Shown here: one piece after another, positions 277 through 44,189 of the stretch
Layout of the letters: each line of letters opens with the position of its first letter
How positions within the stretch are numbered: the stretch's first letter is position 1
Notes under the pieces: model-generated
What the model was told of the DNA's origin: nothing
The model's database searches: none
The model's input: the letters and a program-made list of their open reading frames with translations, nothing else
Assembly: GCA_945892755.1 (NCBI GenBank)
Contig: CAMDDO010000018.1
Span: 1-44,189 of the forward strand
Reading direction: 5' to 3'
Length of the DNA stretch: 44,189 nucleotides
Source: Rhizobium sp. Q54
GTDB taxonomy: Bacteria; Pseudomonadota; Alphaproteobacteria; UBA828
Translations under genes and position numbers: made by a program

Positions 277-1188
277 ATGGACACGTTTGCGCTGATCTTC
301 GGCTACGCCTATCAGTATTTCGACAATGTCGGCTTTCTGGTGTTATCCGCCAGCGGGCTGATCATCATTTTCGGCATGATGGGCGTCATCAACATGGCTC
401 ATGGCGAGCTCATGATGATCGGCGCCTATATCACCGCGTTCTCTTATTACGCCGGCGTGCCGGCTCCGATCGCGGTGATTTTTGCCGGCGTCGGCGCCGG
501 TCTCGTCGGCATGGTGCTCGAGCGCCTCGTTATCCGTTATTTCTATAAGCAGCTGCTTTCTTCTCTGGTCGTCACCTGGGGCCTCAGTCTGATGTTCAGC
601 CAGGGCTTCCTTCTGATCTTCGGGCCCTCGATCCTCAATCTGCCGACGCCCTTTGGCGGCTTTCCGATCAGCGAGCAGACCTTCGGCAGCTATCGCCTCG
701 TGCTTTTCGGCTGTGCCTTGGCGCTCGTCGCTGGCATATGGGCGCTATTCACTTTCACCCGCTTCGGCACGCAGGCGCGCGCCACCATGGAAGATCCCGC
801 CATGGCCGACGCGCTCGGCATCAACACGCGCCAAGTCTATTCGCTCACCTTCGGTCTCGGTTGCGCACTTGGTGGCATTGCGGGCGGCCTGTTCGCGATG
901 ACCGCGACGATCTCGCCGTTCTTCGGCGTCAATTACACGCCACTTGCGTTCATCACCGTCGTCATCGGCGGCGGCGCCAATGCGATCACCGGTCTGATCG
1001 CGAGCGCACTGGCGCTGGCCGGTGTACAAACGGTCGTGGTCAACGCGTTCAATCAATATGTCGGCTATATATCGATGATGGCGGCTGCCTTCTTGATCCT
1101 GCTCGCGCTGCCGCGCGGCATCTCCGACTATCTCGAACGGCGCAAACTTAGAGCCGTGCGCGCTTCGAGGCCCTCGCCTCATGGCTAA
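277..1188 (+). CDS. livH: Branched-chain amino acid/amide-type ABC transporter permease LivH (cassette 1)
   Basis: This 303-residue integral membrane protein is almost entirely hydrophobic. Its N-terminal half carries the LivH-type stretch IIIFGMMGVINMAHGELMMIG (about residues 29-49), typical of the LivH/UrtB permease family. It should pair with LivM (1181-2302) to form the inner-membrane channel. The ATG at 277 is preferred because the protein then begins MDTFALI, matching the start of its paralogue at 21973 (MDTLTFI). The 3' end overlaps livM by 8 bases, which suggests translational coupling. The family assignment is firm; the substrate is unknown and could be an amino acid, an amide or urea. 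Confidence 0.93.
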   Translation: MDTFALIFGYAYQYFDNVGFLVLSASGLIIIFGMMGVINMAHGELMMIGAYITAFSYYAGVPAPIAVIFAGVGAGLVGMVLERLVIRYFYKQLLSSLVVTWGLSLMFSQGFLLIFGPSILNLPTPFGGFPISEQTFGSYRLVLFGCALALVAGIWALFTFTRFGTQARATMEDPAMADALGINTRQVYSLTFGLGCALGGIAGGLFAMTATISPFFGVNYTPLAFITVVIGGGANAITGLIASALALAGVQTVVVNAFNQYVGYISMMAAAFLILLALPRGISDYLERRKLRAVRASRPSPHG

Positions 1189-2302
1189 CGCCGCCACGCG
1201 TCTCGATCGGTGGCTTGGGCCACTCAACGGACCGCAAACCATGGGCCGCGGCGTGCCGTTCTGGCTATGCTTCATCGCAGCGGTCGTCGTGCTCGCGATC
1301 GCGCCAAATTTCCTCTCACGCTACGATATCATCAACTTTTCGAATTTCCTGATCTCGGGCCTGCTCGCCCTTAGCCTCGGGCTGATCTGGGGCTATTGCG
1401 GAATCCTGAGCCTCGGCCAGGCCTCGTTCTTCGGGCTTGGCGGCTATGCCTATGGCGTCGTCGCGATGAATCTCCTGCGTGCCCACGGCAATACCGATGT
1501 TGCGTTTGTCGCCGGCATCCTGATTCCGGTCGCGTTCGCGGCAGTCATCGGCGCCATCTTGTTTTACGCGCGGCTGCGCGGGGTCTATGTCGCGATCTTG
1601 ATGCTGGTGATCTCGCTGGTCATTGGCACCTTCCTGCGCCAGACCGCCGACCCGAGCTATACGATCGGCGCCGCCTATCTGGGCGGCATGAATGGCCTGC
1701 GCCCGACCTCGCCCGATGATCCGCTGCTCCCTAGTTTGATTTTCGGTTTCGGCGATTGGGTTGCCGAGTTCGACGGCCGCAGCGTCTCGTTCTATCACCT
1801 TGTGCTTGCGATCGTGGTGGCTGTCTATCTAGGGCTGCGATGCGTCGTCAACTCGACCTATGGATTCCTTCTGGTCGGGGTTCGCGAGGAGCCGGAGCGG
1901 ACCGAAACGTTTGGTTATGACGTACGGCTTATTCAACTTTCGGTGTTTTGCTTGGCCGCCGCGATCGCCGGCCTCTCCGGCGTGCTCTATACGGCGTGGG
2001 GCACCTATATCCACCCCGACGGGTTTGGCGTGGCGCAGAATATCTTAGTGGTGATCTGGGTCGCGGTCGGCGGCCGCAAGGATCTTCTCGCGGCGCTTCT
2101 TGGCGCGCTCGTGCTCAACTGGATTTCTCTGCGCCTCGCGTCGGAGGGCGAGTTCGCGCTCCTCGTCATGGGCGCGATTCTGGTTGGCGTCATGCTGCTT
2201 GCGCCGGAGGGACTGGCGATCGCGATTGGAAATCGCCTTGGGCGCCTGTTTGGACACGGCGCGAAAGTGGGTCAGCCGGCCGTGCGCACGGAGGAAGGCT
2301 AG
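1181..2302 (+). CDS. livM: Branched-chain amino acid/amide-type ABC transporter permease LivM (cassette 1)
   Basis: This 373-residue membrane protein is the second permease subunit. The segment LIWGYCGILSLGQASFFGLGG (about residues 68-88) and the following YAYGV are typical of LivM/UrtC proteins. A short hydrophilic N-terminus (LDRWLGPLNGP) is shared with the paralogue at 22869. The ATG at 1181 lies inside the last codons of livH (8-base overlap). The stop codon overlaps by one base the GTG proposed as the start of livG. It should form a heterodimeric channel with LivH and be energised by LivG and LivF. It looks complete for the family. Confidence 0.93.
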   Translation: MANAATRLDRWLGPLNGPQTMGRGVPFWLCFIAAVVVLAIAPNFLSRYDIINFSNFLISGLLALSLGLIWGYCGILSLGQASFFGLGGYAYGVVAMNLLRAHGNTDVAFVAGILIPVAFAAVIGAILFYARLRGVYVAILMLVISLVIGTFLRQTADPSYTIGAAYLGGMNGLRPTSPDDPLLPSLIFGFGDWVAEFDGRSVSFYHLVLAIVVAVYLGLRCVVNSTYGFLLVGVREEPERTETFGYDVRLIQLSVFCLAAAIAGLSGVLYTAWGTYIHPDGFGVAQNILVVIWVAVGGRKDLLAALLGALVLNWISLRLASEGEFALLVMGAILVGVMLLAPEGLAIAIGNRLGRLFGHGAKVGQPAVRTEEG

Positions 2303-3048
2303 TGGGCGCGCCGGCTACCAAACTGGCCGTGGCCGGGACCATGATCCTGGAGACGCGCGGGCTGATGAAAACCTATGGCGGTGTCGCTGCGCTTCAAGGC
2401 GTCGATTTCGCACTGAAGACCGGCGAGCTTCACTGCATCATCGGCCCGAACGGCGCGGGTAAGAGCACGTTCTTCAAATTGCTCATGGGGATTGAACGTC
2501 CGAGCGCGGGGCAGATCGTCTTCAAGGGCCGCGATATCACGCGCCTTCAAGCGCATGAGCGGGCACGCCTTGGCATCACGGTCAAGTTCCAAAGCATGCG
2601 CGTCTATCAGGACTTGCCGGTCTATCACAATCTGTTCATTCCACTGCGCCGCCATCACCGCGCGCGTGAAATTCCAGCCGTGGTGGAGCGCTTGCTGGCC
2701 GACGTGCATCTGTCGGGGACTGGCGAAGAATATGTGCGCAATTTGTCGCATGGCCAGCAGCAATGGCTGGCGATTGCGATGGCGGTCGCGGCCGAGCCCG
2801 AGGTGCTTTTGCTCGACGAGCCGACCGCCGGCATGTCAGCGGAAGAGACCACGGCGACGGCCCGCATCGTCAAGCGGCTCAACGGGCAGGGCACTTCGAT
2901 CATCGTGATCGAGCATGACATGGCCTTCATTCGCGACCTCGATTCGATGACTTCGGTTTTGCACTATGGCGCGCTGTTCGCGCAGGGTGCGTTCAAGGAC
3001 ATCGAGGCAAGCGTGGAGGTCCAGCGCATCTATTTGGGGACGCTGTGA
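2302..3048 (+). CDS. livG: ABC transporter ATP-binding protein LivG (cassette 1)
   Basis: This is one of the two ATPase subunits of the importer. Counting from the GTG at 2302 (248 residues), the Walker A motif GPNGAGKS is at about 48-55, the LSHGQ signature at 148-152 and the Walker B LLLDEP at 169-174, followed by TAGM as in LivG/UrtD proteins. The GTG start is chosen because a GGAGGAAGG ribosome-binding site ends about four bases upstream and the start overlaps the livM stop codon. An ATG at 2341 would give 235 residues but has no comparable site. The stop overlaps the start of livF. It acts on the cytoplasmic face of LivHM. Confidence 0.92.
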   Translation: MGAPATKLAVAGTMILETRGLMKTYGGVAALQGVDFALKTGELHCIIGPNGAGKSTFFKLLMGIERPSAGQIVFKGRDITRLQAHERARLGITVKFQSMRVYQDLPVYHNLFIPLRRHHRAREIPAVVERLLADVHLSGTGEEYVRNLSHGQQQWLAIAMAVAAEPEVLLLDEPTAGMSAEETTATARIVKRLNGQGTSIIVIEHDMAFIRDLDSMTSVLHYGALFAQGAFKDIEASVEVQRIYLGTL

Positions 3049-3791
3049 TGATGGCGAGTGACGCGCCGGCGACCTCAGCCCGAATGGCCGGGACGGTGCT
3101 TTCGGTAGAGGCACTTTGCGCCGGGTATGGCCGCGTGCGAATCATCCAAGGCGTGACGCTGGATGTGAAGAACGGTGAAATACTCGCCATCATCGGGCGC
3201 AACGGCGTCGGCAAATCGACGTTCCTGAAAACGCTCATCGGTGCGATCTCGCCCATGAGCGGGCGGATCGGCTTCAAGGATCAGGACATTTCAGTGATGC
3301 CGCCATCGCGCCGCGCACGCCTCGGCATCGGCTATGTACCGCAGGGGCGCGGCATCTTCGCGCGCATGAGCGTGGCCGACAATCTTCTCATGGGTGAGCG
3401 AGTCGGCGGCAAAGGCGTGCCAAATTACGAGCGCGTCTTTCAGTTTTTCCCGATCCTGAAGGAGCGGCTCGGCCAGAAGGCCGGCTCGCTCTCTGGCGGC
3501 GAGCAACAGCAGCTGTCGATCGGGCGGATTTTGGTCGGGCATCCCGAGCTCATCCTATTGGACGAACCCTCGGAGGGCATCCAGCCCAACATTGTTCAGG
3601 CAATCGGCCGCATCATTCGACGCCTGCGCGATGAAGCGCAATTGACCGTCGTCATGGTCGAACAGAATCTCGATCTGATTCAGGCCACTGCCGACCGGTG
3701 CATCGTCATCGACAAAGGCCTCGTCGTCGCCGAGATTTCCCCGAGCGATCTCGCTAATTCCGAATCCGCGCGGCGCTATTTGGCCTTGTAA
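3048..3791 (+). CDS. livF: ABC transporter ATP-binding protein LivF (cassette 1)
   Basis: This is the second ATPase subunit, 247 residues from the ATG at 3048, which overlaps the livG stop (TGATG). A GTG at 3045 and another ATG at 3051 are equally in frame, so the start is uncertain by one codon either way. Walker A GRNGVGKST lies at about 50-58, YVPQGRGIF at 96-104 (typical of LivF/UrtE), the signature LSGGE at 148-152 and Walker B LILLDEPSEGIQP at 168-180. The first 16 residues before the ABC fold are a non-conserved extension compared with the paralogue at 25759. It is the last gene of cassette 1, and the next gene points towards it. Confidence 0.92.
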   Translation: MMASDAPATSARMAGTVLSVEALCAGYGRVRIIQGVTLDVKNGEILAIIGRNGVGKSTFLKTLIGAISPMSGRIGFKDQDISVMPPSRRARLGIGYVPQGRGIFARMSVADNLLMGERVGGKGVPNYERVFQFFPILKERLGQKAGSLSGGEQQQLSIGRILVGHPELILLDEPSEGIQPNIVQAIGRIIRRLRDEAQLTVVMVEQNLDLIQATADRCIVIDKGLVVAEISPSDLANSESARRYLAL

Positions 3792-21933: not shown

Positions 21934-21972
21934 TTGGCTCACCCGCCTCGAACGCGCCACGGAGCGCTGTCG

Positions 21973-22863
21973 ATGGATACCCTGACCTTCATCGTCAGCC
22001 TGCTCTACCAATACGCGGATACGCTCGCGCTGCTGTTGCTCGCCGCGATCGGTCTGATCGTCATCTTTGGCATGATGGGCGTGATCAACATGGCCAATGG
22101 CGAGATGATGATGATCGGCGCCTACATCACATCGTTCTCGTACTATGCCGGCATCCCGACGCCGCTCGCGGTGATCTTCGGCGGTCTCGGCGCGGGCCTG
22201 GTAGGCATCGTCATCGAGCTTCTGATCATCAGGCGCTTTTACGGCCAGTTGCTGGCCTCACTGGTAGCGACCTGGGGCCTTAGCCTGATCATGAGCCAGG
22301 GCGCTTATCTATTGCTCGGCCCGCTGATCAAGAGCGTGCCGACACCGTTCGGCAGCTTCGGCGTTGGCGATCTGTCGTTTTCCTACTACCGCATTTTCAT
22401 ATTCGCGATGGGGCTGGCGCTGGTCGCGGCGGTCTGGGCGTTGTTCGCGTTCTCGCGCTTCGGCTTGCATGCCCGCGCGACCATGGAAGACCCCTCGATG
22501 GCGCGCGCGCTCGGCGTCGACGTCAAGCGTATCTATTCGCTTACTTTCGGCCTCGGTACCGGGCTCGCGGGCGTCGCCGGCGGGCTGCTGGCCCTGACCT
22601 CGACGATCGGTCCGTTTTACGGCCAGACCTACACGCCGCAAGCCTTCATCACCGTCGTGGTCGGCGGCGGCGCCGAGATTGTTTCCGGCCTACTCGCCAG
22701 CGCTCTGTCGCTTGGCTTGGTCAAGACCGTCGTCATGAATCAGGTCAACATCCTGCTTGGCCACGTCGCCATGCTTGTGTTCGCCCTCGTGGTGATCCGC
22801 ATGATGCCGTCGGGGATCTCCGATTGGGTCGAGCGGCGGCGCAGCCAGGGAAGACGAGCTTGA
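21973..22863 (+). CDS. livH: Branched-chain/amide-type ABC transporter permease LivH (cassette 2)
   Basis: This 296-residue membrane permease is a clear paralogue of the protein at 277-1188, sharing IFGMMGVINMANGEMMMIG (about 31-49) and EDPSMARALGVD (about 174-185). The ATG at 21973 is chosen over an upstream TTG at 21934 because it gives the same MDT start as the paralogue and has GGAG upstream. The stop (22861-22863) is five bases before the livM ATG. Its partner is LivM2. The cargo is presumably the same amide-like compound as that of the binding protein at 20613. Confidence 0.92.
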   Translation: MDTLTFIVSLLYQYADTLALLLLAAIGLIVIFGMMGVINMANGEMMMIGAYITSFSYYAGIPTPLAVIFGGLGAGLVGIVIELLIIRRFYGQLLASLVATWGLSLIMSQGAYLLLGPLIKSVPTPFGSFGVGDLSFSYYRIFIFAMGLALVAAVWALFAFSRFGLHARATMEDPSMARALGVDVKRIYSLTFGLGTGLAGVAGGLLALTSTIGPFYGQTYTPQAFITVVVGGGAEIVSGLLASALSLGLVKTVVMNQVNILLGHVAMLVFALVVIRMMPSGISDWVERRRSQGRRA

Positions 22864-22868
22864 GCGCG

Positions 22869-23993
22869 ATGCTGCCGCTCGCCCGACTGATCGACCGCGC
22901 GCTCGGCCCCGTGAACGGTCCGCTTGAAACCGGCCGCTCGCCACCGTTCTGGCTGATCTTCCTGGGTGTGGTCGCGGTGCTGGTGATCGCGCCGAGCTTT
23001 CTGTCGCGCTATGAGTTGCTCAATTTCAGCAATTTTCTGACCAACATCTTTCTCGCGCTCGGGCTCTGCCTGATTTGGGGCTATGCCGGAATTCTTAGCC
23101 TCGGTCAGTCGGCCTTTCTCGGGCTCGGTGGCTATGCCTATGGCGTTGTTGGCATCAATCTGATCGAGGCGCATGGCAATACCTGGCTTGCGCTGCTCGC
23201 CGGCCTCGGTTTCCCGGTGCTGGTCGCTGCCCTGCTGGGCTGGATCATGTTTTATGCCCGGCTCAAGGGAGTGTACGTCGCCATTCTCATGCTCGTGGTG
23301 ACGCTCTTGATCGAGACGTTCCTCAATCAAACGGCCGGGCAGGGCTGGAGCATCGGCCTCGCACATTTGGGCGGCAATAACGGGCTCGGCCGTTTCTCGG
23401 GCGTGATCCGCGAGCCGCCGTCGCTCACCCTTGGCTTCTCGGCCGACGCCATGATGATTTTTGGCGGCAAGACCCGCGCGTTCTACTACCTGATCGTCGG
23501 GCTCGGCGTGGTCAGCTATCTTGGCTTGCGCGCGCTGGTCAATTCGCGCCTCGGCCACGTGCTGGTAGCGATCCGCGAGGATCCCGATCGCACCGAGACG
23601 CTCGGTTACGACGTGCGGCGTCTGCAGCTTGGCGTCTTCTGTCTGTCGGCGTTATTGGCCTCGCTCTCGGGCATCCTCTATGTCTCGTGGGGCAATTTCA
23701 TCACGCCGAACGTGTTCGGCGTCTATTACAACATCCTGCCGGTGATCTGGGTCGCGGTCGCCGGGCGCAAGAGCCTGACCGCGACCGTGCTCGGCGCGGT
23801 ATTCCTGGTCTGGCTGTCGCAGAAACTCGCGATCCAGGGCGATATCGCCTTCGTGGTGCTTGGCTTCATCCTGCTCGGCGGCATGATGCTGCTTCCGGAA
23901 GGTGTGATCACCGGGATCGGCGAACGCATCGGCCGTCTGTTCGATCGCCTCGGAATCGGCGCGGCGACACGCGGGGGGCGTCATGGCGGCTGA
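22869..23993 (+). CDS. livM: Branched-chain/amide-type ABC transporter permease LivM (cassette 2)
   Basis: This 374-residue protein is paralogous to 1181-2302 throughout, for example in LIDRALGPVNGP and WGYAGILSLGQSAFLGLGG. The ATG at 22869 gives nearly the same length as the paralogue (373). A TTG at 22860 overlapping the livH stop is an alternative start. The open frame continues upstream into livH, but that part has no homology. The end overlaps livG by 11 bases. It forms the channel with LivH2. Confidence 0.91.
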   Translation: MLPLARLIDRALGPVNGPLETGRSPPFWLIFLGVVAVLVIAPSFLSRYELLNFSNFLTNIFLALGLCLIWGYAGILSLGQSAFLGLGGYAYGVVGINLIEAHGNTWLALLAGLGFPVLVAALLGWIMFYARLKGVYVAILMLVVTLLIETFLNQTAGQGWSIGLAHLGGNNGLGRFSGVIREPPSLTLGFSADAMMIFGGKTRAFYYLIVGLGVVSYLGLRALVNSRLGHVLVAIREDPDRTETLGYDVRRLQLGVFCLSALLASLSGILYVSWGNFITPNVFGVYYNILPVIWVAVAGRKSLTATVLGAVFLVWLSQKLAIQGDIAFVVLGFILLGGMMLLPEGVITGIGERIGRLFDRLGIGAATRGGRHGG

Positions 23994-24741
23994 ACCGCTG
24001 CTCGAAACCCGCGCTGTGTCGAAACGCTTCGGTGGCGTCCAGGCCGTAAGCGAGGTCAGCCTCAAACTCGCGCCCGGCGAGCTCCGTTGCATTATCGGGC
24101 CGAACGGCGCCGGCAAGAGCACGCTGTTCAAGCTGCTGCTCGGCAGCATCGCGCCGGATGAAGGCACCATCCATTTCCAGGGGCGCGACGTCACCCGGCT
24201 GCAGCCACACGAACGCGCGCATCTCGGCATTGGCGTCAAGTTCCAGAACCTGGCTGTCTATAATGCGTTGACCGTGCGCCACAATCTGCTGTTGCCGCTG
24301 CGTCATCAGTTCGGGTCGCGCGAGGTCGAGGACGAGATCGCGCGCCTGCTCGCGCGGCTCAATCTGGTCGGCACCGAGGATCGTTTGGTCGGCAGCCTGG
24401 CCCATGGACAGAAGCAGTGGCTCGCGATCGGCATGGCGCTCGCCATGCGACCCAAGCTGCTCTTGCTCGACGAGCCGACCGCCGGCATGGGCACGGAAGA
24501 AAGCAGCGCGACTGGTGCCTTGATTCAGGCGGTCACGGCCGAGGGCGTCGGCGCGATCGTTGTCGAGCACGACATGGCGTTCGTGCGCGAACTCAAAGCG
24601 CCGGTCACCGTGCTACATTACGGCAGGGTTTTCGCCGAAGGCTCGTTCGCCGCGATCGAAGCGCATGAGGAAGTGCGCCGTATCTATCTCGGCGCGGCCA
24701 GGAGCGAGCGGCCGCGCCGGCTCAGAAATCGACAGCCATGA
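23983..24741 (+). CDS. livG: ABC transporter ATP-binding protein LivG (cassette 2)
   Basis: This 252-residue ATPase has Walker A GPNGAGKS at 39-46, PHERAHLGIGVKFQNLAVY at 75-93, the signature LAHGQ at 139-143 and Walker B LLLLDEPTAGMG at 159-170, closely matching LivG of cassette 1 (LSHGQ, LLLDEPTAGM). The ATG at 23983 follows GGGGGGCG. Unlike cassette 1, livF does not follow directly: an amidase gene begins 17 bases after the stop. Confidence 0.92.
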   Translation: MAAEPLLETRAVSKRFGGVQAVSEVSLKLAPGELRCIIGPNGAGKSTLFKLLLGSIAPDEGTIHFQGRDVTRLQPHERAHLGIGVKFQNLAVYNALTVRHNLLLPLRHQFGSREVEDEIARLLARLNLVGTEDRLVGSLAHGQKQWLAIGMALAMRPKLLLLDEPTAGMGTEESSATGALIQAVTAEGVGAIVVEHDMAFVRELKAPVTVLHYGRVFAEGSFAAIEAHEEVRRIYLGAARSERPRRLRNRQP

Positions 24742-24758
24742 CATAGGAGTATCGCGCC

Positions 24759-25748
24759 ATGCAGACGATCAAACGCGGACAGGTCACACGCTATGCGTTC
24801 GACAAACGGGATGAGGTTTGTCTTCGCGTCAAGCAAGGCGAGAAGTTCGTGATCGAAACCGATGACGCCTTGACCGGATTGATCGAAGACGACAGCGATC
24901 ACCCGAAGGTTCATCAATTCGTTGGCGACGGCCATCTCGGCAATCTTCAGCGGCAATGGCCGCCGCTTTACAACCCCGTGGTCGGGCCGATCCATGTCGA
25001 GGGCTGTGAGAACGGCGATGTGCTTGCGGTGCACATCGACCATATCGACCCGTGGCGCTATGGCTTCTCGGGCATTCTGCCGGGCATGGGGCCCTATGGC
25101 GATTCGATCAAGTGGGGCGACTGCGCGAAACCCCATGTCCAGGTGATCGAGCATCTGCCGGGCCCGAGCGGTCACACGCGCGACGGCAAGGGCAAATATT
25201 CGGACAAGCTGACCTGGGACTTGATGCCGTTTCTCGGCACGCTCGCGACCGCGCCCGAACGCGAGGTATTCACCTCGCTGCTCGGCCAGGGGCCGTTCGG
25301 CGGCAACATCGACTGCCGCGAAATCCGCGCTGGCCATACCATCTTGCTGAACTCCTACAACGCCGGCGGGTTGCTCTATATCGGCGATGCGCATGGCTCG
25401 CAGGGCGACACGGAGTTCACCGGCATCGCCGATGAAACGCGCGCCACCGTCCAGCTCAGCTGCACCGTGATCAAGAAGAAGCGCTTGCCCTGCGTGCGCG
25501 TGATCAAGCCGGACAGCATCGTCGCGATCGGCATCAATTTGCCGATGGAGCACGCGGTCTATGATGCCTGCGCCAACATGCTCGAATGGCTGCGCGAGGA
25601 TTACAAGATCGCGCCCAAGGACATGTACATTCGCATGTCGTGCGACCCGGCCTTCCGCATTCGCACCTATCAAATGGTGCGTGCGCTCACGATCCAGCAC
25701 GTGGTCGGCGCGGAGTACCCGAAATCGCGTTTGGCGCCGGCTATTTGA
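24759..25748 (+). CDS. fmdA: Formamidase/acetamidase family protein (FmdA/AmdA)
   Basis: This 329-residue amidohydrolase of the FmdA_AmdA family hydrolyses short amides to ammonia and a carboxylate. Family signatures are VVGPIHVEGCENGDVLAVHI (74-93), the GGNIDCREI segment (181-189) and IGDAHGSQGDTEFTG (208-222), which contain the usual metal-binding and catalytic acidic and histidine residues. It is shorter than the roughly 400-residue formamidase of Methylophilus and nearer the acetamidase length. The ATG at 24759 has AGGAG eight bases before it. It is embedded between livG and livF (gaps of 17 and 10 bases), which strongly links the importer's cargo to amides. Confidence 0.92.
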   Translation: MQTIKRGQVTRYAFDKRDEVCLRVKQGEKFVIETDDALTGLIEDDSDHPKVHQFVGDGHLGNLQRQWPPLYNPVVGPIHVEGCENGDVLAVHIDHIDPWRYGFSGILPGMGPYGDSIKWGDCAKPHVQVIEHLPGPSGHTRDGKGKYSDKLTWDLMPFLGTLATAPEREVFTSLLGQGPFGGNIDCREIRAGHTILLNSYNAGGLLYIGDAHGSQGDTEFTGIADETRATVQLSCTVIKKKRLPCVRVIKPDSIVAIGINLPMEHAVYDACANMLEWLREDYKIAPKDMYIRMSCDPAFRIRTYQMVRALTIQHVVGAEYPKSRLAPAI

Positions 25749-25758
25749 GGCGGCGTCG

Positions 25759-26460
25759 ATGGTGCTCGCGCTCGATGCGCTGAGTTCGGGCTATGGCGGC
25801 GTGCCGATCGTGCGCGACGTCTCGCTCGAATTGCGGTCGGGCGAGGTGCTTGGCGTCGTCGGGCGGAATGGCGTCGGCAAAACCACGCTGGTCAAGACCA
25901 TCGCCGGTCTGCTGCGCGCGACGAGCGGCCGCATCCGCTACAAGGACCGGGACGTCACCGACCGCGGCGCGCGTGACATGGCGCGCCTCGGGATGGGCTA
26001 TGTGCCGCAGGGGCGCGGCATTTTCTCGCGTCTCTCGGTGATCGAAAACCTGCGGATGGGTGAACAGATCGGTGGCCGCCAAGCGAGTTACGACTACGAG
26101 CAGATCTTCGAGTGGTTTCCGCGCCTGAAGGAGCGGGTGCGCCAGCGCGCTGGCACGCTGTCGGGTGGCGAACAACAAATGCTGGCGATCGGTCGCGTCC
26201 TGGTCGGGCGACCGGATTTTCTTTTGTTGGATGAGCCGTCCGAGGGCATACAACCGAATATCGTGCAGCAGATTGCCGAGGTCCTCGTGCGGCAGAACGA
26301 GAGCCGCAATTTGACCATCCTCTTGGTCGAGCAGAACCTTGATCTTGTCTACATGACCGCCGAGCGTTGCGTCGTGATGGACAAGGGGGCGCTGGTGGCG
26401 GAATTGACGCCCGAGGAACTCGTGGAACCCGAAACCGCGAAGCGCTATTTGTCGATTTGA
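25759..26460 (+). CDS. livF: ABC transporter ATP-binding protein LivF (cassette 2)
   Basis: This 233-residue ATPase has Walker A GRNGVGKTT at 35-43, MGYVPQGRGIFSRL at 79-92, LSGGE at 134-138 and Walker B FLLLDEPSEGIQP at 154-166. The ATG at 25759 lies ten bases after the amidase stop; the frame is open further upstream, but that part is an out-of-frame shadow of the amidase. It is the fifth transporter gene of cassette 2 and the last gene on this strand before a convergent SDR gene. It completes a full importer with LivG2 and LivHM2. Confidence 0.92.
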   Translation: MVLALDALSSGYGGVPIVRDVSLELRSGEVLGVVGRNGVGKTTLVKTIAGLLRATSGRIRYKDRDVTDRGARDMARLGMGYVPQGRGIFSRLSVIENLRMGEQIGGRQASYDYEQIFEWFPRLKERVRQRAGTLSGGEQQMLAIGRVLVGRPDFLLLDEPSEGIQPNIVQQIAEVLVRQNESRNLTILLVEQNLDLVYMTAERCVVMDKGALVAELTPEELVEPETAKRYLSI

Positions 26461-39527: not shown

Positions 39528-39568
39528 GCAACACTTCAATGATGGTGGCTCCACAACGAAGGTGATTG

Positions 39569-40267
39569 ATGTCCGCAGACCGACGTACGCTTTCCGGCAT
39601 AGGACTGCTCAGCGGGATCGACCAGGCAGTGCTCGCGGGCATCGAGGAGCGTAGCGTATGGCGGCGCTATCGGTCCGGCGAGCGGGTCTTCGAGCGGGGC
39701 ACGGCGGGACACGAGGTGTTTTTCGTTGTCGAGGGCGCGGTTGACGTGATCAGCCCGGCCCCGTCCGGCATCGAATTTAACTTCGCCCGAATCGGCGTGG
39801 GTGAGGTCGTCGGGCACTTGGCGGCGATCGATGACCTGCCCCGAGCAGCCAGTGTCGTTGCGGCAGAGGACTCGCTCTTGGCGGCGCTGCCCTGCGATCG
39901 GTTTCTAAAATTGTTGCGAGAGAACGGAGAGGTCGCCTTACGCTTGCTGAAATCGCTGTCCCAGATCGTTCGGGCGACCAACGAGCGTGTGGTATCGGCA
40001 AGCTGCAGAGAAGGTATGGAGCGGGTCTACGGCGTGCTGATCGATCTCGCGAGGCCGGACCCATCGACGACCGATCTCCTTGTGATCGAGCCGTTTCCGC
40101 CCCTGCGCGACATCGCCCTGCAAGCCGGCGTGACGCGGGAGCTGGTGGCGAGCGCGCTGAACCGTCTCTACCCCGAAGGCATCGTTCGCCGCCGAGGCAA
40201 TACGCTTTTCATCACCGACGCAACGCGCCTGCAGAATGCCGTGCGCGGGGCCTTGCCTGGCAAGTAA
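39569..40267 (+). CDS. Crp/Fnr-family transcriptional regulator
   Basis: This 232-residue protein has an N-terminal cyclic-nucleotide-binding-like beta-roll (about 10-130, with YRSGERVFERG and RIGVGEVVGHLAAIDDLPRAAS), a dimer helix, and a C-terminal winged helix with PLRDIALQAGVTRELVASAL (about 173-192) and GIVRRRGNTLFITD. There is no Cys cluster for an Fe-S centre in the N-terminal part, so it is not a classical Fnr. The ATG at 39569 follows GAAGGTG; a TTG one codon upstream is an alternative. It is convergent with glnE (19-base gap). It has no obvious operon partner and may bind the dyad at 39513. Confidence 0.9.
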   Translation: MSADRRTLSGIGLLSGIDQAVLAGIEERSVWRRYRSGERVFERGTAGHEVFFVVEGAVDVISPAPSGIEFNFARIGVGEVVGHLAAIDDLPRAASVVAAEDSLLAALPCDRFLKLLRENGEVALRLLKSLSQIVRATNERVVSASCREGMERVYGVLIDLARPDPSTTDLLVIEPFPPLRDIALQAGVTRELVASALNRLYPEGIVRRRGNTLFITDATRLQNAVRGALPGK

Positions 40268-40286: not shown

Positions 40287-43148
40287 CTACAGCCGTCTTG
40301 ATTGATCGAAGGCGGCGCCGACGGCTTCGCCCGCCGCCCCTAACAATGTCATTAATTCTCCCCGGTCGGTCGCCCCCACCGCAACCGCCAGGGCCTTGTC
40401 GATCTCCTGCCTTTCGGCATCGCCAAGCACTTCATCCCCGACGGCCAATTCACGATAGCTTTCAATCCGACGAAGCTGAAAGTGTGCGCGCCGCAATTCG
40501 CGTACCGTATGGGCGGGCCATAACGTCAGCGTCTGGAAGCGGTCGAGCGCAGCCGATGTCGAAAGTCCGAGCAATTCGGGAAACTGCCGTGCGCTCCCGA
40601 GCTGGACGACGCGCGTCAGTAGTTCGATGTCATTGAGCCCACCCGGCGCACGGCGTGGGTCGACAGCCAGCGCTCCGGCATCAACGCCGACGCGTTGCAA
40701 GGCCGCATGCCGTGCGCCGACAAGTTGGAAGAGTGCCGCATCGCCGCCATGGATGGCGACAAGGTGCTGATGGACCTCTTTCAGCGTCGCAGCGCCATGG
40801 CTCTCCCGTTCGTGCACCGATCGGGCCGACGCGAACTTCAGCCGAATTGCAAGACCCCGATCGTCGAGCGGCAATTCGCACAGGTCTCGGACCGATGCCA
40901 GCAGCGGCGCCTCTGCCGCCCAAGACCCATTCGTGATCTCGCGAAAGCACTCGACGATCGAGGTACCTAACCGCTCCGCGGCGTCTCGCTCCTCATCGAC
41001 CAGCAGGACAATATCCGAACAATCCAGCCGCTCGATATCGCGCGAGCCGTAGCGTCCGATGGCAATGGCGGGCACCCCGAGGCCGACGATCACCGCATCG
41101 CAGAGATTGGCGATCGCATGGGCCGCGTCAAAAGCGGTCAACGCGTAACGAGCCGTCGCGACACCGACCTGAGCCCTGATACGATCGGCCAGCGCGGTGA
41201 GCCGTTCCATCCGTGCCTCGCCTGCCGAACTGTCGATGATTGACCTGATCTCACGCAACAGAAGCTTCCGCCCTGGCGGACTCAGCGAAAACTCCCGCTC
41301 GACCAAATGCTGCAACACACGTGGCCGCGCCCCGAAAAACGCCAGAAGCGCCGGGGCCCGAGCGGCGGCGGTCGTCACGATGTCAAGCGCGCTCCGGTTT
41401 GCGGCCAAGAGAGCGGGTGTGACCGCGTCGCCGTCGAGATCAACTATGAATCGATCGAACCGGCGGATCAGTTGATCTTTCGTCGCATGGCTTCGCGTTG
41501 CCGCCACCAATTGCGGAACGAGCAAGCGTAGAGCCTGGGCACCCCTGTCTCGCTCCACGTCCGCTTTCGAGCCGACAGCCCAGCGCCGGAACATGGCATA
41601 CATGTCGGCCGGATCGGCGAACCCGGCTTCGACCAGGATCCGCGCCACCTCCTCGCTTGGTGCATCGGTCGAAAAGTCCCAGACGCGAGAATCATCCTCG
41701 TCCGAAATCTTGAACAGCGTCTGGTAATGGTGGGCAACGCGGCGCAGGTGGTGGAAGAGCGTGTCCCGAAACGACCCGACGTCTTCGAAACCCATGAAGC
41801 CCGCGAGCCGCGCCATGTCTGAGTCGTTCGATGGCAAGGTCTGGGTCTGCTCGTCGTTGATCATTTGAAGCCGATGTTCGACCTGACGGAGGAACTCGTA
41901 AGCCTCGGTCATCTCGTCAGCGCTCAACTCGTCGAGATAGCCGGCTTCGGACAGCGTGCTCAGGGCATCGAGCGTTTTCTGACAGCGCAAATAGGGATCG
42001 GTCCCGCCATAAATGAGCTGCTGGGTCTGTGCTCCGAACTCGATCTCGCGGATGCCGCCGCGGCCGATCTTGATGTTGTATCCAAAGAAATCGATCTCGC
42101 TGCCGCCGCGATGCGCATTGATCCGGAGTTTGAGCTGCCGAATTTCCCTCATGGTCCAGAAGTCCACACGCTCCGGCCACACGAAGGGTGCAAGCCCGTT
42201 CAAGAATGTGTGGCCGAGTGCGACATCGCCCGCGGCCGGGCGCGCCTTGATCATCGCCGCACGCTCCCAGGTCTCACCCCGCTCGGGGTAGTACGCCCGG
42301 GCGGACGCGACCGAGAGCGCCAGCGGCGTCGCGCCCGGGTCGGGGCGCAAGCGCCAGTCGACGCGGAAGACATAGCCCTCGCCGATGCGGTCGTTGATCA
42401 GTCGCCCGAGCTTCTGCGTCAACCCGATGAAGAATTGCTGCACACTGCGCGCACCGCGGTAGTCGACCTTCGCCGGGTCGTAGAGCGCGATCAGATCGAT
42501 GTCGGACGAATAATTGAGCTCGCGCGCGCCGTACTTGCCCATTGCGAGGACGAAATAGCCGCAGCCGTCCTCTGGGAACAGACGATCGGCGAGAACGATC
42601 TCTCCTCTTTCGTGCGCAGCGAGCAGCAGGTGGGAGATCACGGCCGAAAGGGCAGCGTCTGCGAGATCGCTGAGCGCATGGGTGACTCGCTCGAGCGACC
42701 AATGGTCGGTCAAATCGGCCAAAGCGATCGCGAGCGCCGCCTGGCGGCGCGCGGTGCGGAGGCCTTGTGCTAGGGTCGCTTCGCTCGTCTCGCGCGTTAC
42801 TGCGCCCTTGACACCGAGAATGACGCGCGAGAATGCCGCATCCGGCCCGTCTTCGATCAGTTCCCGGAAAAAGCCCGGCTCCGCGGCGACAACGCGGGAC
42901 AAAAATGGGCTGCTGCCGAGGATGGCTCGGAGGACGTCGATTTCGGGGCTCGGGTTCGCCAGTAGGCCATTCGCCCAGTCGGCGATTTCGGGGCCTGCTG
43001 TTTCGCGTAGCCGCCCCATGACTTCGGCGAGCGGGTCATAGCCCGCTGCGGCCCCAATAAGCCGCGGCATGCCGAAATACGGGGCTCGGTAGAACATGGG
43101 CGTGCGGCATTTGAGCCCAAGATGTCGTGCGACGCAATCGGTCGCCAT
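40287..43148 (-). CDS. glnE: Bifunctional glutamine-synthetase adenylyltransferase/deadenylase GlnE, with degenerate C-terminal half
   Basis: This 953-residue protein has full length for GlnE, which adds or removes AMP on glutamine synthetase under PII control. The N-terminal nucleotidyltransferase domain (deadenylylase in E. coli GlnE) is intact: GKYGARELNYSSDIDL (204-219) with Asp216 and Asp218, VDWRLRPDPG (263-272) and GRGGIREIEF (362-371). In the C-terminal (adenylylating) domain the corresponding motif is GRYGSRDIERLDCSDIVLL (698-716), with Val714 where the second Asp should be. The expected D-x-RLRPSG stretch is replaced near 755-775, and only GGLNDIE (836-842) is kept. The start at 43148 is weakly supported; an ATG at 43097 is possible. 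It lies 252 bases downstream of glnK. Confidence 0.92.
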   Translation of the reverse strand: MATDCVARHLGLKCRTPMFYRAPYFGMPRLIGAAAGYDPLAEVMGRLRETAGPEIADWANGLLANPSPEIDVLRAILGSSPFLSRVVAAEPGFFRELIEDGPDAAFSRVILGVKGAVTRETSEATLAQGLRTARRQAALAIALADLTDHWSLERVTHALSDLADAALSAVISHLLLAAHERGEIVLADRLFPEDGCGYFVLAMGKYGARELNYSSDIDLIALYDPAKVDYRGARSVQQFFIGLTQKLGRLINDRIGEGYVFRVDWRLRPDPGATPLALSVASARAYYPERGETWERAAMIKARPAAGDVALGHTFLNGLAPFVWPERVDFWTMREIRQLKLRINAHRGGSEIDFFGYNIKIGRGGIREIEFGAQTQQLIYGGTDPYLRCQKTLDALSTLSEAGYLDELSADEMTEAYEFLRQVEHRLQMINDEQTQTLPSNDSDMARLAGFMGFEDVGSFRDTLFHHLRRVAHHYQTLFKISDEDDSRVWDFSTDAPSEEVARILVEAGFADPADMYAMFRRWAVGSKADVERDRGAQALRLLVPQLVAATRSHATKDQLIRRFDRFIVDLDGDAVTPALLAANRSALDIVTTAAARAPALLAFFGARPRVLQHLVEREFSLSPPGRKLLLREIRSIIDSSAGEARMERLTALADRIRAQVGVATARYALTAFDAAHAIANLCDAVIVGLGVPAIAIGRYGSRDIERLDCSDIVLLVDEERDAAERLGTSIVECFREITNGSWAAEAPLLASVRDLCELPLDDRGLAIRLKFASARSVHERESHGAATLKEVHQHLVAIHGGDAALFQLVGARHAALQRVGVDAGALAVDPRRAPGGLNDIELLTRVVQLGSARQFPELLGLSTSAALDRFQTLTLWPAHTVRELRRAHFQLRRIESYRELAVGDEVLGDAERQEIDKALAVAVGATDRGELMTLLGAAGEAVGAAFDQSRRL

Positions 43149-43400: not shown

Positions 43401-43745
43401 CTAAAGCGCGTCGACGCTCGCATCCATCTTACCGGAGCGAATCTGGATGACATGAGTAAGTTCGGACACGTAGATGCGCCCATCGCCGACCTCGCCCGTG
43501 ACCGCCGCTTGTCTCAACGCATCGACGGCGCGGCTGGCAAGCTCGTCTGAGACCGCGAATTCAATTCGTGTCTTGGTCAAATAGCCGACCGCATACTCCG
43601 CGCCGCGGTAGAACTCCTTGTGGGTTTCCTGCAGACCGAAACGCCTGACCTCGGAAACGGTCATGGACTCAACCCCAATGCCGGCCAAAGCGTCGCGCAC
43701 CAGCTCGAGCCTATGAGACTGAATCACCGCGATGACAAACTTCAT
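43401..43745 (-). CDS. glnK: PII-family nitrogen regulatory protein (GlnK-like)
   Basis: This 114-residue trimeric PII signal protein would sense ATP, ADP and 2-oxoglutarate and bind Amt and GlnE-type partners. The T-loop reads FGLQETHKEFYRGAEY (36-51), with the uridylylation Tyr51 retained. Unusual positions compared with E. coli GlnB are Gln9-Ser10-His11 for Lys-Pro-Phe, Leu38 for Arg, Glu40 for Lys, Arg90 for Lys and Gln101 for Arg, several of which contact the nucleotide phosphates. Arg103 and Gly-Asp-Gly 87-89 remain. GGAGGGAG precedes the ATG at 43745. It lies 56 bases after amt, in the order amt-glnK rather than the common glnK-amtB. Confidence 0.92.
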   Translation of the reverse strand: MKFVIAVIQSHRLELVRDALAGIGVESMTVSEVRRFGLQETHKEFYRGAEYAVGYLTKTRIEFAVSDELASRAVDALRQAAVTGEVGDGRIYVSELTHVIQIRSGKMDASVDAL

Positions 43746-43801: not shown

Positions 43802-44189
43802 TCAGAGAATGGACTCGCCATGGGCATGGATGTCGAGGCCCTCACGTTCGCCGTGCTCGCTCACTCTCAGTCCAATCGTCCGCTTCAGCACAAGGAGAAT
43901 CGCGGCGGTGACGATCGCGCTCCAGGCGACCGTCACCACGAGCCCATAGAGCTGCTTGACGATCTGAATTGGGGCACCATCCACCGCGCCTGAGGCGCCG
44001 CCATAGGCGCTAGTCGCGAATACGCCGGTCAGAATGGCCCCGACAATACCGCCCACGCCGTGCACGCCAAACACGTCGAGGCTGTCGTCATAACCAAAGC
44101 GATGTTTGAGGTGGCTGGTTGCAAGATAGCAAGCGAGGCCGCCAAGCGCACCAATGGCAAGGGCCGCGGCCGGGGTGACGAAGCCGGAG
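43802..44189 (-). CDS. amt: Ammonium transporter Amt, C-terminal part (partial)
   Basis: The 5' part lies beyond the window. About 128 residues are visible, from SGFVTPAAALAIGALGGLAC through YDDSLDVFGVHGVGGIVGAI to the stop at 43802. The HGVGG histidine is the second of the twin pore histidines of Amt/Mep/Rh channels. The last membrane helix (LYGLVVTVAWSAIVTAAILL) is followed by a cytoplasmic tail with GLRVSEHGEREGLDIHAHGE, the conserved Amt C-terminal signature that interacts with PII. The neighbour glnK product is its expected partner. An in-frame ATG at 44074 would only be an internal methionine. Confidence 0.94.
   Translation of the reverse strand, partial: SGFVTPAAALAIGALGGLACYLATSHLKHRFGYDDSLDVFGVHGVGGIVGAILTGVFATSAYGGASGAVDGAPIQIVKQLYGLVVTVAWSAIVTAAILLVLKRTIGLRVSEHGEREGLDIHAHGESIL

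Follow-up and report, generated by a model that had tools for sequence, protein, structure and literature searches.

GlnE is the textbook case of a protein with two opposing activities, and why these have stayed fused is an open question. The assignment of each activity to one half of the protein is established (PMC12409994), with a deadenylylating (AR) half and an adenylylating (AT) half acting on glutamine synthetase (GS). The window, that is, the whole 44,189-nucleotide stretch of DNA analysed here, carries a glnE paralog, glnE2 (40287..43148, minus strand), in which an earlier note had seen an intact N-terminal and an apparently dead C-terminal half, and this raises the question of which activity the protein could still carry out. 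The reading frame lies where that note had placed it, on the same strand, and runs over 953 codons without an internal stop; the start codon of the 953-residue protein is uncertain, with the next in-frame ATGs at codons 18 and 27.

The AR half of GlnE2 (aa 1–479; 41712..43148, minus) holds the best stretches of similarity to the Pfam families GlnE (PF03710, aa 73–317) and GlnD_UR_UTase (PF08335, aa 352–479) and gives 198 bits against 1v4a, an E. coli AR structure, and a whole-genome PF03710 search matched glnE2 in this half only. All motifs previously described as intact were found: SSDID, whose Asp216-Ile-Asp218 (42495..42503, minus) corresponds to Asp173 and Asp175 of the E. coli AR site, DWRLRPDP, in which Asp264 aligns with the third AR aspartate, Asp223, and GGIREIEF at position 364. 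GlnE2 therefore has the D-x-D and DxRLRP signatures of the N-terminal AR nucleotidyltransferase of GlnE proteins, and in its AR core 97% of the most strongly conserved columns are preserved. Judged by these residues, the AR half looks competent.

The C-terminal half is preserved very unevenly. A profile of the GlnE C-half still recognises the central linker with its regulatory helices (aa 480–690; 41079..41711, minus; 73 bits), which has diverged and keeps just 57% of its best-conserved columns, and the final 120 residues, the C-terminal helical subdomain with its GGLNDIE motif (aa 832–953; 40290..40655, minus; 41.5 bits), but not the AT nucleotidyltransferase core between them (aa 691–831; 40656..41078, minus). 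Within this core, 42 columns show conservation in 90% or more of 48 relatives, and GlnE2 keeps only 8 of them. The segment GRYGSRDIERLDCSDIVLL aligns gap-free in both MAFFT and hhalign, with Cys710-Ser-Asp712 (41013..41021, minus) opposite Asp701-Leu-Asp703 of the E. coli AT site; the acid that has been lost is thus the first catalytic aspartate, replaced by Cys710, while the second is retained as Asp712. The earlier note had instead taken Val714 to replace the second aspartate, but Val714 occupies a non-catalytic position. Its observation that the RLRPSG block is missing was correct, as the whole DxRLRPSG block is deleted and the third aspartate (E. coli Asp752) has gone with it; the WTWEHMAL motif is absent as well. 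The D-x-D and DxRLRPSG signatures of a C-terminal AT nucleotidyltransferase are therefore not found in GlnE2. Of the most conserved AT-core columns GlnE2 keeps 23%, whereas the share is never below 77% among 99 intact GlnE proteins (median 100%), and with 97% of the AR core kept, the AT loss goes well beyond alignment noise. GlnE2 scores 612.5 bits against the NCBIfam equivalog model for bifunctional GlnE, PRK14108, below its cut-off of 724.

Nearby positions might in principle supply the lost acids, which the earlier note had named as the result that would overturn its claim. No acid able to replace Asp701 or Asp752 was found in the gap-free alignment or in the structure model, and a two-residue shift that would bring Asp709 or Asp712 into first place would require an indel that is present in neither the MAFFT nor the hhalign alignment. 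The AT half thus looks catalytically dead, although its fold appears to have been kept. An AlphaFold2 model of the C-half alone (pLDDT 86, pTM 0.84) superimposes on the E. coli AT domain (3k7d_B) with a Z score of 27.7 and an rmsd of 3.7 over 434 residues, so that the AT-domain fold of the GlnE superfamily is retained in the model, and the C-terminal subdomain is built of high-confidence helices. Hence, the C-half is predicted to be a folded pseudo-AT domain without its chemistry.

The earlier note had also predicted that another adenylyltransferase exists, and a search for a second glnE did find one in the same genome. GlnE1, encoded on contig C15 next to a peroxiredoxin-like gene, has both halves intact and scores 1130 bits against the same PRK14108 cut-off. 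The genome further encodes GlnD (1238 bits; cut-off 959), and on contig C36 glnB adjoins glnA, whose product carries the target tyrosine in KNLYDLPPEE. All components of a GS adenylylation cascade are therefore present, namely a GS carrying the target tyrosine, GlnD and PII proteins (GlnB and a second one, PII2). The alternative that GS is not adenylylated in this organism thus finds no support; with the tyrosine kept in GlnA and GlnE1 intact, GS can be adenylylated by GlnE1. Five GS-family proteins (PF00120 matches) are encoded in the genome, and this number, together with the highly divergent C-half of GlnE2 (an end branch of 10 in the C-half tree), leaves some room for the idea that GlnE2 acts on a GS-like paralog or on another AMPylated protein rather than on GS. 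We regard this as very improbable, since the substrate-side residues of the GlnE2 AR half show the same conservation as in enzymes acting on GS and the NLYDLP motif was seen only in the GlnA of contig C36, the other GS-like frames having been read in part.

An intact AR half, a dead AT half and a second GlnE with a competent AT half elsewhere in the genome, which we propose as the genomic marks of an AR-only GlnE, are thus found for GlnE2; such a protein would further be expected to deadenylylate GS when stimulated by PII-UMP and not to adenylylate it. We therefore favour, with a probability of about two-thirds, the reading that GlnE2 is a second GlnE paralog that has turned into a one-way GS deadenylylase with a retained pseudo-AT domain, probably boosting deadenylylation under nitrogen limitation. 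Of the two roles that the earlier note had considered, deadenylylation only or regulation through PII binding, the first is the best reading given an AR half that is competent and an AT half that is dead by sequence, and the near-complete AR core favours an active deadenylylase over a mere PII-binding regulator. GlnE2 could also be an idle pseudoenzyme or PII sink, which binds PII or GS by way of an intact surface and modulates GlnE1 but does not deadenylylate. The erosion of both the linker and the AT core (57% and 23% of columns kept) would fit such a role, and non-catalytic GlnE relatives do occur, as families f80 and f109 encode a further GlnE-like protein in which both halves are degenerate. 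We consider this unlikely, given that every AR motif and 97% of the AR core are retained and that purifying selection on the AR core of an analogous protein in a sister genus (copy A, see below) is very strong (omega 0.039). AR activity is reportedly lost when E. coli GlnE lacks its AT domain (Jiang, Mayo and Ninfa, in 2007), and the degenerate AT domain of GlnE2 might thus fail to support the AR half. The AT domain and linker are probably needed for regulation of the AR half by PII-UMP, which would explain why the pseudo-AT fold has been kept.

The neighbourhood of glnE2 suggests how such an enzyme could be controlled. The gene lies downstream of, and on the same strand as, the 3' end of amtB (43802..44189, minus; PF00909, 118.6 bits), which encodes an ammonium transporter and is cut by the end of the window and contig, and the gene for PII2 (43401..43745, minus; PF00543, 71.5 bits). 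PII2 is a divergent, GlnK-like protein that is 45% identical to the GlnB of the genome and keeps Gln39, Tyr51 and Lys58. PII genes linked to amtB are usually induced when nitrogen is scarce. We infer that GlnE2 is catalytically active, co-expressed with amtB and PII2, and activated by PII2. Transcription together with amtB and PII2 is, however, made less certain by the gap of 252 bp between the PII2 gene and glnE2 and by a scan for sigma-54 promoter patterns that gave no signal (159 matches against 152 expected). Orthologs of PII2 were not found among relatives in the family, which show no PII match besides their glnB. A misbinned contig is unlikely, as DNA elsewhere in the window matches family genomes at 75–81% identity, and the contig thus belongs to the lineage. 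On the other side of glnE2, a gene for a CRP/FNR-type regulator (39566–40267) is convergent with it and ends 19 bp from its stop codon. Elsewhere in the window, two related ABC transporter clusters with BPD_transp_2 permeases (277–3791 and 21934–26460) share about 66% DNA identity, and an acetamidase/formamidase gene (24759–25748) follows the transporter genes in one of them; the clusters possibly serve amide or urea uptake near the nitrogen genes.

Taken with this context, we hypothesize that GlnE1 would set the adenylylation level of GS under the control of GlnB, adenylylating GS and also being able to deadenylylate it, and that GlnE2 would probably add one-way deadenylylation under nitrogen limitation, pulling GS towards its active form. 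PII2 is the likely activator, and GlnE2 may be tuned to the PII protein linked to amtB. Once fully uridylylated, the GlnK of E. coli activates deadenylylation only poorly (PMC5448240), and it can be speculated that a deadenylylase fitted to the local PII would overcome the weak activation by GlnK-UMP. A more far-reaching proposal, which we put forward tentatively and with rather less credence than the main reading, is that amtB, PII2 and glnE2 make up a stand-alone module for nitrogen starvation, with a dedicated deadenylylase that answers to a PII of its own, apart from the GlnB-GlnE1 'off' branch, and that in the sister genus the split would be complete, an AR-only and an AT-only protein replacing the bifunctional GlnE in a natural subfunctionalisation.

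This sister genus (g5, same family) is represented by eight metagenome-assembled genomes, each with two GlnE proteins, and in all eight these form a reciprocal pair. Copy A (about 1030 aa) has an intact AR half, with SSDVD, DLRLRPDP and GGIREIEF, and a dead AT half, with APLD, SPLD or GPLD and RPRPSG. Copy B (about 994 aa) shows the reverse, with SSALD, SSELD or AGALP, mostly KFRPN, and GGIRQIEL or GGIRNIEL in the AR half and SDLD, RLRPSG (RLRPAG in one) and GG.LDLEF in the AT half. In the N- and C-half trees, copy B clusters with the resident GlnE of the family and copy A does not, the latter grouping with a similar copy from family f70 whose AT half is likewise degenerate. The copy B proteins (L133–L139 and L143) are hence resident GlnE proteins that have lost the AR catalytic residues and kept the AT half, with the AR-only copy encoded in the same genomes, and where the GS of these genomes could be read, NLYDLP is kept. 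Selection is relaxed in opposite halves of the two copies. In pairwise comparisons, dN/dS of copy A was 0.039 for the AR core and 0.218 for the AT core, the latter being higher in every one of the 28 species pairs, which are non-independent. For copy B it was 0.252 for the N-half and 0.182 for the C-half, with the N-half higher in 28 of 28 of the same kind of pairs, but the cores alone do not differ (omega 0.146 and 0.162). No such asymmetry was seen in the intact single-copy GlnE of genus g6, with values of 0.097 and 0.124 and a higher C-half in 8 of 15 pairs. These figures describe the g5 copies and the g6 single copies, GlnE2 having no ortholog among the searched genomes that would allow such a comparison. 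From their motifs, the enzyme of g5 appears to have been divided between a copy that can only switch GS on and another that can only switch it off. Like GlnE2, the copy A proteins of g5 and f70 (L028, L093, L144 and others) combine an intact AR half with a degenerate AT half and coexist with a second, AT-bearing GlnE, but their AT core is less eroded (62–77% against 23% of conserved columns) and none was seen adjoining amtB or PII. In one f70 genome (G391), only an AT-degenerate GlnE (L146) was found; two relatives also carry an intact one, and a contig is possibly missing.

A closer parallel in gene context is GlnE L140 of genome G028 (family f9), which has intact AR motifs but only 23% of the AT-core columns, adjoins amtB and a divergent PII gene, and is accompanied by a second, intact GlnE and a GS with the motif DLYDLP. 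In contrast to glnE2, which is on the same strand as amtB and PII2, its gene is transcribed divergently from them, and a contamination of 7% in G028 weakens the case. A common origin of GlnE2 and L140 was rejected in a careful N-half tree (AU p 0.008), whereas with an earlier, quick tree it had not been rejected (p 0.695). Grouping of GlnE2 with copy A of g5 and f70, a distinct clade, found no support but was not rejected either (AU p 0.08). In the careful tree GlnE2 falls into a supported set (95/98) with the GlnE proteins of Kiloniellaceae, Rhodovibrionaceae, Magnetospirillum and relatives, but a grouping with the family's resident GlnE was not rejected (p 0.13), so that GlnE2 may have arisen from GlnE1 by duplication or been acquired by transfer. 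Orthologs of GlnE2 were found neither in the order (22 genomes, same genus and family included) nor, with the C-half as query, in 385 genomes of the class, and the best matches in a plasmid search included only partial GlnE matches at less than 40% identity. The long N-half branch of GlnE2 (0.91–0.95) and the lack of an ortholog in any searched genome speak against the AR-only reading. Together with a slightly lower GC content at third codon positions, falling from 0.78 in the N-half to 0.66–0.71 in the C-half, they would suit a decaying duplicate that is heading for loss and has lost its AT half first. Yet the frame is open over its full length with coding-like codon-position composition throughout, 10 of the 18 strongly conserved columns survive in the C-terminal subdomain, and the AT half has been lost and the AR half kept in at least two further GlnE lineages, which makes decay an improbable explanation. 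The AR-only reading, in turn, rests on motif loss and retention, genome context, intact partners and the reciprocal loss in relatives, and on these grounds we find it convincing at the sequence level.

Compared with the bifunctional GlnE of E. coli and alphaproteobacteria (PF03710, PRK14108, PRK11072), GlnE2 shares the two halves, the AR motifs, the linker and the AT fold, but differs in the loss of the AT active site, in its score under the PRK14108 cut-off and in its location with amtB and PII rather than at the usual glnE locus. In Azospirillum and Azorhizobium, truncation has been used to engineer AT-only enzymes, the unidirectional adenylyltransferases, which serve to make ammonia-excreting bacteria (PMC9249168). 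These show that the two activities can be uncoupled and GS regulation made one-way, as GlnE2 also suggests, but GlnE2 is natural, full length and apparently set in the opposite direction. A search of the full-text literature, in which few subscription journals are covered, found no description of a natural AR-only or AT-only GlnE paralog. GlnE2 and the g5 pair look like natural cases of this uncoupling, the former as an AR-only protein beside an intact enzyme and the latter as a reciprocal AR-only/AT-only pair. As ready separation-of-function proteins, they could be used to study in which direction PII acts on each activity and whether the dead AT domain is needed, with the natural AR-only copies complementing the engineered AT-only enzymes (PMC9249168).

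An extra GlnE copy was apparent in about 9 of about 260 genomes with a GlnE match in the class-wide sample. The degenerate proteins of f80 and f109 (L149, L150 and L151; 950–1010 aa) have lost the AR motifs and the first AT aspartate (APLD or QPLD) and keep the third (DxR.RPGG) and GG..DLD, and two proteins of family f59 (L153 and L154; 877–937 aa) have weak similarity to the GlnE C-half only, with the catalytic motifs absent. PRK14108 scores the AT-degenerate L140 and L144 above its cut-off, and automatic annotation thus calls them bifunctional and can hide the loss of the AT half.
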